Shown: in pieces, positions 31,001-34,000 of the stretch
Numbering within the stretch: the first letter of the stretch is position 1
Layout: each line of letters starts with the position of its first letter
Assembly (NCBI GenBank): GCA_030141605.1
Contig: JAQGDQ010000095.1
Location: forward strand, 585,353 to 649,352
Direction of reading: 5' to 3'
DNA: 64,000 nt
From: Tubiluchus corallicola
Taxonomy: Eukaryota > Priapulida > Priapulimorpha > Priapulimorphida > Tubiluchidae
Made by a program: the position numbers and the translations under genes
The notes under the pieces: model-generated
The model's input: the letters and a program-made list of their open reading frames with translations, nothing else
What the model was told of the DNA's origin: nothing
The model's database searches: none

Positions 31001-34000
31001 ATATAGTGAACAATTAAAAAAATTCATATTTGAACTTCTAACGTGCACCTGTACATGCAAAACATAGAGTTATTTCTTTTCTTTTATTATATTGTTTATA
31101 ATGTGGTACATATGTGGCATAATTAAAGTAGCAGTTGAATATGCATTATAAACAATAATTAACTTTATAAATTTTTTTAAGTCAGTGCGTACTGTAAAAA
31201 GAAACGATTAGAAAAAGATTATATCTAAGACAGAAGTAGAAAATAGCATACAACACTTTGCAAATGAAGCATCAGTTTTGGCCAAAATGTATTACTATCT
31301 GTAAAACTGAATAAGCAAAGCTTGATGAAAAAATAGTGAATGTAGAAATGAATACTAATGCAATGAGAAAAACAAACCGAATGACAGTATAAGGAGCAAA
31401 TGGAAGAAAAAATAAAAGAGCAAGATACGAAACAGAAAACACAACAATTCCTTCTGAACTAAGCAAACATTTTTAGGACGAAACAAAGACAATTATAAAG
31501 TGTAGTACTTGCTACATTTCGTAAAGCATGGTATTTTTTTAAACATTTTTGTATACAGGTTGTTTTCTCTTTCACTGAAATCAATTGGGCATATGTATGA
31601 GTTTGTGATCTATGAGATCTTGCTAAAGATAAATATTGTTTCATTTCTAGAGCTCTGTTGTATCTTTATTCTATTGTTTGGACTAAGTCTACTGACCATC
31701 ACCAGTTTTGTTATACTGTAGTCTTCTTTGACTACCTTATTGTTACATCTTACCAATTACATCTTACCAATAATATGCAATAAAGAGAAGCAAAGGTATT
31801 GTCATGGCGATCTGCAAGTGTCTCCAGTTGTCAAACACTATTGCCACCAGAGACAGCACCATAATACCAAGTGACCAAAACATTTCACACATGCATGCTG
31901 CCCAGGACCTTGATTCTGCTGGCACTGATTCACATAGTAGTGTGTACGTGGTCAAAAATGCACCCTAATAAAATACTGCACATTACAAAATTTTACATTT
32001 ATTGATATTTGAAAACTACCATTCTTACCAGTAATATGCAAAAAATAGTAAGAGCGGTATTGTCATGGCAACTTGCAAATGCCGCCAGTTGTCGAATATA
32101 AGAGCCACCAGTGGCATCATCATAATGCCAGCCGACCAGAAACAAGTGCTCATACAAGCAGCCCAAGACCTTGAATCTGTAGGCACGGATTCACATAGCA
32201 GGGTATATGTGGACAGAAATGCTCCCTAGGTAAAAGACTGTTAGTTATGAATGGTTGTGACAAAACTAAATCTCTAAATATTGGTGCAGAACTTTGCTTC
32301 TATAGACGTTTATTCATAATTTCCTATAGTAATGGATAACCATACATGTAGATACCTTGATAATGTCTAAAATGATAAAATCTTCTGAAATTTCTGTCTA
32401 AAATCTTTAGTAATTTACAGTTCAAGGTCAAATACAACGTACTTTATGAGGTTTCAGTTTTAGACAAAAACGGAAAGAAAGTGCTCTAAGATTTTCTGAT
32501 ACTTTTAACTTTTTTTGGTGTGCTTTGTAAGAGGAAATTGGGTGCAAAGGTGTCATTAGCGAAAGTCTCAAACTTAATTTCCCGTGTTTTACTCGTTATA
32601 TGACGCCAGCAGAATTCAGTCCTTAGTATTTGAGTTTGGTTATCATTTGTCAAATTTCGCTGTGTAGCACTGCTTACCAATTCAGCATCACAGAAATGAT
32701 GTGGTATTTAAGGAAGCAGTTGCTAGCACATTTGTCTAGCCTGTGATTTTCCGAAGTTTCACGAGCATAACCAAACAAAATGTTTTTGGGGGGAAAATGT
32801 AAATTTGAGGCCCGTTTTCATTAGGAAGGAAACCACACGAATTTAATAAAATTAGTGTCAAAGTTTAAGTTACGGTTAGCTGTTTTAATTAAAGAAAACT
32901 TTTTTTATGTTAAATTTGACCTTTAATGCGAGTTAAATATTCAGGATATTGCAGCTTAAATCTTTATGATAAAAAGTATTGATACGGTATACGGGTATAG
33001 GATATGGTATGGTATAGGAAGTATTGCAATGTTACAACATCATTATTGTTTAGGTATGATTTTGTTCAGAAGCATTCTTTGACCTTACTGTTTTACTAAG
33101 CAATTCCTTCTAGCAGTACTTACTACTTGGAACCAGGCTGTAAAGAAACGTATTACTCCATACATTATGTAACCCTGTGAAAAGATTTGTAATGCAGAGA
33201 GAACCAAGAACACAGCATACGACCCCATCGCGGCCCACTTACGACCCACTTGGTCAGCTATGACAGATATGACAAATGCACCACATAACTTCCCTGCAAA
33301 AAACATCGTTGATGTCAACTGCACGTAGATCTCTTTGTCACAAACCAGTCCCCACTGCAAAGCAAAAGTTTTATATTATTGTGTGTACATAACAGTTAAT
33401 ATATGTGTAACATAAAATTTTAGTTTTTGATAGTTTGCTAATGTTTCTGAACTTAACATTTCTCACACCCTAACCCTGACTCTAATCCTAATACGCTTCA
33501 GAAACTAATTTCTTATTACTTTAAACACTGTAAACTTCAGTCATTTTTTCTTCGCCTCTTGATTATCTACTAATGTTTAAGATAGCAAATGGTTCTACGG
33601 GATACACACTGTATGTTAATTTTCAAATGCATGAGAACACTGAGAAAAGTAATTAAAATGATAGTAGCAAATTAAATAACACTGATTATCACAACTACAC
33701 CTATTAAGCATTAGTTATGACATTTACCTCCGTTACTATAGTTATTCCTAGTGATGTGTTAAACCAGTATCCCTCTGTGCATGGTACCGTCTGGTTAGTT
33801 GAAATGTTAAAATTTTCATATTGTTCACAAGTTTTTTCACCTGGTGGTAGTGCCAGTGACTCGTCTACTCCATCTGGGGTGGCGCAGTGATAATCTGCCG
33901 GCTCTGCTCCTTGATAAGTGATTGCAAACGTGGGCCACGGATGAAACAAGTACATAAACGATACGAGTGTGAAAATATAAAACTGCCATTTTCCGTATTT

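Follow-up and report, generated by a model that had tools for sequence, protein, structure and literature searches.

An SLC22-type transporter gene of Tubiluchus corallicola, encoded by the minus strand of the 64,000-nt stretch of DNA analysed here (the window), carries two adjacent versions of its third exon, 3A and 3B. Taking the evidence together, we consider it likely that the two exons are an old tandem duplication of an internal SLC22 exon, that both copies are functional, and that they are used in the mutually exclusive manner predicted for them, with the short intervening intron and the loss of misspliced RNA as the proposed enforcers. Exclusive use accounts best for the pair because neither copy shows signs of decay and because the other combinations of the two exons break the reading frame.

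A doubled third exon in an SLC22 gene

The gene model for the minus strand was assembled manually on the basis of splice sites and reading frames, and features nine exon positions, the third of which is doubled, between a start codon at 34039 and a stop codon at 27588. Exon 1 (33728..34039) begins with the start codon, and an in-frame stop is found nine codons upstream of its ATG. Exon 2 (33124..33354) ends in phase 0 and exon 4 (30576..30815) is entered in phase 2; they are followed by exon 5 (29832..29966), exon 6 (28991..29076), exon 7 (28505..28625), exon 8 (28225..28297) and exon 9 (27588..27824), which includes the stop codon. GT-AG ends are present in all nine introns of the gene.

Sequence comparison identifies the product as an SLC22/MFS transporter. 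The isoform containing 3A (isoform A) matches the Pfam families Sugar_tr (1.5e-26) and MFS_1 (5.6e-24), SLC22 members make up 26 of the 32 distinct solved sequences matched, and the best matches to solved structures are OCTN2 (8.9e-68), OAT1 (5.1e-63) and OCT1 (1.9e-60). Glu359 aligns with Glu386 of OCT1, a residue described in the excerpted text of PMC10567722 as conserved across SLC22. The same excerpt describes Asp474 of OCT1 as conserved in the OCTs only, most OATs and OCTNs having Arg there (PMC10567722). At the aligned site our protein has Arg453 and is therefore OAT/OCTN-like rather than OCT-like at that position; as Arg453 is encoded by exon 8, outside the alternative exon, this property is common to both isoforms. 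The analogy with organic cation transporters drawn in the first-pass annotation consequently fails at this one defining site. Furthermore, Glu193 and Arg200 are kept in both isoforms and align with OCT3 Glu232 (TM4) and Arg239 (TM5), the residues of the gate salt bridge (PMC10567722, excerpt).

Exon 3A (32029..32225, minus strand) is 197 nt long and encodes residues 182-247, for which exon 3B (31768..31964, minus strand, 197 nt) provides an alternative; an intron of 64 nt separates them (31965..32028, minus strand). Both copies possess an AG acceptor and a GTAAG donor and are entered in phase 0 and left in phase 2. They are identical at 145 of 197 bases, and their products at 52 of 66 residues (78.8%). 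The initial description of two adjacent 197-nt exons with common phases and 66-residue products about 79% identical was accordingly borne out, with exact coordinates. The two copies match each other at 2.1e-36 in tblastn within the window, and the pair is the sole match listed (1.5e-36) in a self-BLAST of the window with E up to 1e-5, the low-complexity filter on and matches of more than 60 nt. A tblastn search of the window, in which the products of exons 1, 2, 3A, 3B and 4 served as queries, revealed no further copies of exon 3 or of exons 1, 2 and 4; for exons 5-9, which were covered by the DNA self-BLAST, no repeats were found in the window. The similarity between 3A and 3B fades about 14 nt upstream and about 6 nt downstream of the exon, and its ending near the exon edges fits the expectation for an old duplication. 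Neighbouring internal exons of equal length (197 and 197 nt) with shared phases, an open frame and sequence homology are among the marks of a mutually exclusive cluster, and 3A/3B display these. Length, phase and homology are the criteria given in the excerpt of Pillmann 2011 (PMC3228551); of the 1705 fly X-chromosome genes surveyed there, just 6 had such pairs among non-exclusive exons. When residues 1-247 of isoform A were used to search for related loci, a collection of viral contigs yielded none and genome contigs produced 15 pattern matches with 0 confirmed, neither collection being meant for animal genomes.

Several other features share the window. A strawberry-notch homologue (45628-56637, minus strand) is recognisable from consecutive Pfam AAA_34 and Helicase_C_4 exons, and a 365-aa frame at 57657-58754, which has no Pfam match, may, as a guess, be its N-terminal part. 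On the plus strand, a RILP-like gene (12987-23246) contains an RH1 domain at 12987-13334 (2.3e-26); the frame 22893-23246, also with no Pfam match, was assigned to it by guess. RILPL genes and SBNO1 are also neighbours in human 12q24.31, so the arrangement in the window may be an old gene linkage. Remains of non-LTR retrotransposons (60883-63218) include an endonuclease frame at 61668-62549 on the plus strand (Exo_endo_phos_2, 3.7e-16), and the frames 60883-61737 (plus strand) and 62679-63218 (minus strand) are retrotransposon-like in appearance and have no Pfam match. A 261-aa ankyrin-repeat protein frame is located at 3815-4600 on the plus strand, with a C-terminus that resembles a SOCS box, and a (TC)n repeat with some 80 copies and 98% matches occupies 21514-21672.

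Reading frame and the predicted splicing mechanism

Inclusion of 3A alone or of 3B alone yields a product of 543 residues. When 3A is joined to 3B, translation meets a stop at codon 251, three codons into 3B, which rules out constitutive use of both exons, and when both are skipped the stop falls at codon 211. Retention of the 64-nt intron preserves the phase, since 458 nt and 197 nt have the same remainder of 2 on division by 3, yet an in-frame stop stands at the very start of the intron, and retention is ruled out as a coding form as well. Since an early stop results with both exons, with neither and with the retained intron, among the combinations tested the full protein can come only from the use of a single copy, in agreement with the proposal that each exon alone preserves the frame and both together destroy it.

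On the molecular level, we envisage that exon 2 would be joined to either 3A or 3B and then to exon 4. A 3A-3B join would be unfavourable, as the intervening intron is short and its candidate branch point probably lies too close to the 3A donor for both halves of the spliceosome. Among the candidates in the 64-nt intron, ranked by a simple, crude consensus score, GTAAT comes first; its A is the 46th nucleotide of the intron and lies 18 nt before the acceptor. For this putative branch point the distance from the donor would be 46 nt, below a limit of about 50 nt that derives from vertebrates. In the excerpt of PMC7969005, a distance between donor and branch point of less than about 50 nt is given as the threshold for steric exclusion, and branch points 25-41 nt from the donor enforce exclusivity in OGDH; a human survey found 57 clusters (9%) that fit the steric limit of about 50 nt (PMC5740500, excerpt). 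For exon 3A, a stronger branch-point candidate, CTAAC, is found 15 nt from its own acceptor.

At 64 nt, the intron is the shortest of the nine in the gene, the others measuring 207-952 nt. An intron of this length is ordinary and spliceable in some invertebrates. For comparison, the strawberry-notch introns flanked by Pfam matches at either end (five of five) are at least 478, at least 584, at least 841, at least 720 and at least 274 nt long, counted as gaps between open frames whose flanks match consecutive stretches of the profile. Four more gaps in that gene, whose flanks do not both match Pfam and which were assigned by eye, measure at least 100, 200, 423 and 93 nt, so that introns near 100 nt may occur here. 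The suggestion that the 64-nt intron may be too short for efficient splicing fits the candidate at 46 nt and the rank of the intron within its gene, while the threshold it relies on is a vertebrate one and the branch point is scored by consensus. RNA that nevertheless contained both exons or neither would meet an early stop and be degraded, and additional factors would set the choice between 3A and 3B in each tissue.

Competing pairing between introns found no support as a basis for this choice: in a duplexfold comparison of three whole introns, a weak test carried out without conservation, 5, 13 and 49 of 60 shuffles were as good or better for the three intron pairs. A pair of complementary arms in two long introns (31430-31462 and 33061-33093; 33 nt, 73%, one of 6 such pairs) was likewise set aside as likely due to chance, a judgement made without a separate control. 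A scan of the window for RNA families gave no hit at or above the gathering score.

Exon 3B carries its donor in two tandem copies. On the minus strand, TTG followed by GTAAGATGTAA occurs twice in 31743..31771, forming a 14-nt repeat with 2.1 copies and 100% matches, and TTGGTAAGATGTAA is read twice in a row at 31771-31743. Splicing at the second donor would lengthen the exon by 14 nt, and translation of the extended exon runs straight into a stop. The perfect repeat looks recent in origin and could serve as a decoy. A second AG (GTGCAG, 31976-31981, minus strand) is situated 11 nt upstream of exon 3B, and splicing at it would extend the exon by 11 nt and cause a frameshift.

Constraint on the pair and alternative readings

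The 52 nucleotide differences between 3A and 3B are distributed over codon positions 1, 2 and 3 as 17, 3 and 32. Estimates of dN and dS were 0.155 and 1.91 by NG86 and 0.152 and 1.46 by LWL85, which places the silent sites near saturation; a maximum-likelihood dS estimate of 8.9 was discarded as saturated. Random substitution was simulated 20,000 times with each exon as the starting point; no run ended with 14 or fewer residue changes (mean 32), and 16,409 and 16,966 runs, one figure for each starting exon, gained a stop. Neither 3A nor 3B contains a stop or a frameshift. The complete isoforms A and B score 93.7 and 96.9 bits against Sugar_tr and 85.1 and 88.5 bits against MFS_1. The constraint was measured on the pair taken together, and in combination with the similar Pfam scores it argues against a dead copy.

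This bears on the possibility of a dead or hardly used copy, a neutral duplication without decay so far. The 3B acceptor is the weaker of the two, with 8 of 13 pyrimidines compared to 10 of 13 for 3A (exon 4 also has 8 of 13) and a poorer branch-point match. However, a neutral copy would hardly have kept 52 of 66 residues while dS approached saturation (1.46-1.91), neither exon has acquired a stop or frameshift, and the Pfam match is slightly better with 3B than with 3A, all of which makes this reading quite improbable. Side-by-side allele errors occur in heterozygous invertebrate assemblies, and an assembly or haplotype artefact could in principle have set two alleles or gene copies next to each other, although nothing in favour of this emerged here. 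A DNA difference of 26% with near-saturated silent sites is far beyond what is allelic, the similarity extends no further than about 14 nt upstream and about 6 nt downstream of the exon, and second copies are missing from the window both for exons 1, 2 and 4 (tblastn) and for exons 5-9 (DNA self-BLAST); an artefact is barely credible.

The pair might alternatively operate as a poison-exon switch, in which inclusion of both exons, or of 3B with its second donor, leads to a stop and lowers the amount of transporter rather than changing its kind. Such a switch would be served by the stop that follows three codons into 3B after a 3A-3B join, by the duplicated 3B donor that also runs into a stop, and by the usable GT and AG ends of the 64-nt intron. 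Nonetheless, a strong amino-acid constraint on a full transporter segment would be needless for a poison exon, and either copy alone gives rise to the full protein, so we regard the switch as unlikely. We favour two functional exons, of which each transcript would contain one.

Isoform differences and comparison with known systems

The alternative exon covers residues 182-247, which align with OCT1 215-280 and comprise the second half of TM4, TM5 and TM6; the segments were anchored by OCT3 Glu232 (TM4) and Arg239 (TM5), taken from the excerpt of PMC10567722, and by Phe250 and Ile254 (TM5) and Gln271 (TM6), taken from that of PMC9640557. Of the membrane segments 4-6 first attributed to the exons, TM5 and TM6 are indeed spanned, and according to the alignment the exon starts inside TM4. 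The isoforms are identical except for 14 residues in the end of TM4, TM5 and TM6, and the differences affect 9 of 24 residues in TM5 versus 5 of 42 elsewhere (Fisher P = 0.026), a modest excess for which the bounds of TM5 were chosen by us and the test was made after seeing the data.

Residue 208 is Thr in isoform A and Glu in isoform B and aligns with OCT1 Gln241 and OAT1 Gly227. Contacts of Gln241 with metformin, fenoterol and diltiazem are reported in the excerpt of PMC10567722, and Gly227 is located within 3.3 angstroms of alpha-ketoglutarate, its change to Val abolishing transport (PMC10643130, excerpt). The neighbouring residue 207, Ser or Cys depending on the isoform, aligns with OAT1 Ile226, which is near probenecid (PMC10643130, excerpt). 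The contact positions 184, 211 and 215 are alike in both isoforms, and the differences are not enriched at contact sites (2 of 5 differ, P = 0.29). We hypothesise that the differences between the isoforms, including the pocket-lining Thr/Glu208, probably tune the substrates carried. The bolder idea, that the splice switch alters the charge of the pocket through Thr or Glu at position 208 and makes one gene encode two transporters for different substrate classes, is tentative and rather doubtful. The earlier expectation of two transporters with different specificity thus finds one suggestive site in its favour, and the lack of enrichment among the five contact sites counts against it.

We also compared the 92-residue stretch containing each exon with the solved structures, taking bit-score differences over the 25 chains matched by both. 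Isoform B is nearer to all 7 OCT1-3 chains, with margins of 7.1 to 10.8 bits. Among the OCT entries, 8et9 is probably a mutated OCT2 construct. Entry 8et6 is a mutated OCT1 construct (PMC10567722, excerpt). Isoform A is nearer to both OAT4 chains (6.7 and 6.8 bits), to the single OCTN2 chain (2.3 bits) and to 7 of 9 URAT1 chains (0.1 to 7.2 bits, with about 7 bits for the best URAT1 chain), and only A matched the SLC22A17 chain. The bit scores did not divide the isoforms cleanly into a cation and an anion type, as all 6 OAT1 chains are likewise nearer to B (2.6 to 4.2 bits).

If both isoforms are made, they would constitute a natural experiment in SLC22 specificity, with 14 differing residues around TM5 and a site, 208, that is located at the ligand in the solved structures of OCT1 and OAT1, and their comparison could reveal how small a change redirects a polyspecific transporter. 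By its sequence, 3A/3B is a well-supported candidate for a mutually exclusive pair in an SLC22 gene, an arrangement of splicing that is itself well known. Within the open-access literature covered by listings and excerpts, no case of mutually exclusive exons in an SLC22 gene was found. In four papers that mention both SLC22 genes and mutual exclusion, Slc22a19 is present only as a differentially expressed gene, the isoforms of SLC22A24 are exclusive between individuals with one expressed per sample, SLC22A18 is among the splice events checked by inclusion/skipping PCR, and SLC22A17 has an alternative promoter.

The solved SLC22 members OCT1-3, OCTN2, OAT1 and URAT1 belong to the same family as this protein, which differs from the OCTs at Arg453. 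Exons 4a and 4b of OGDH, which are mutually exclusive, resemble 3A and 3B in being adjacent and separated by a short intron; OGDH is, in contrast, an enzyme whose branch points were mapped in minigenes, whereas exclusivity is here predicted from sequence alone. The MRP of Drosophila, from a different protein superfamily, is an ABC exporter and has more exon copies. As is predicted for the gene described here, it is an invertebrate transporter diversified by exclusive exons (PMC9013439, excerpt). SLC25A3, SLC39A14 and SLC12A1, members of other families, provide further examples in which one gene uses mutually exclusive exons to change part of a transporter (PMC5740500 and PMC9741552, excerpts).
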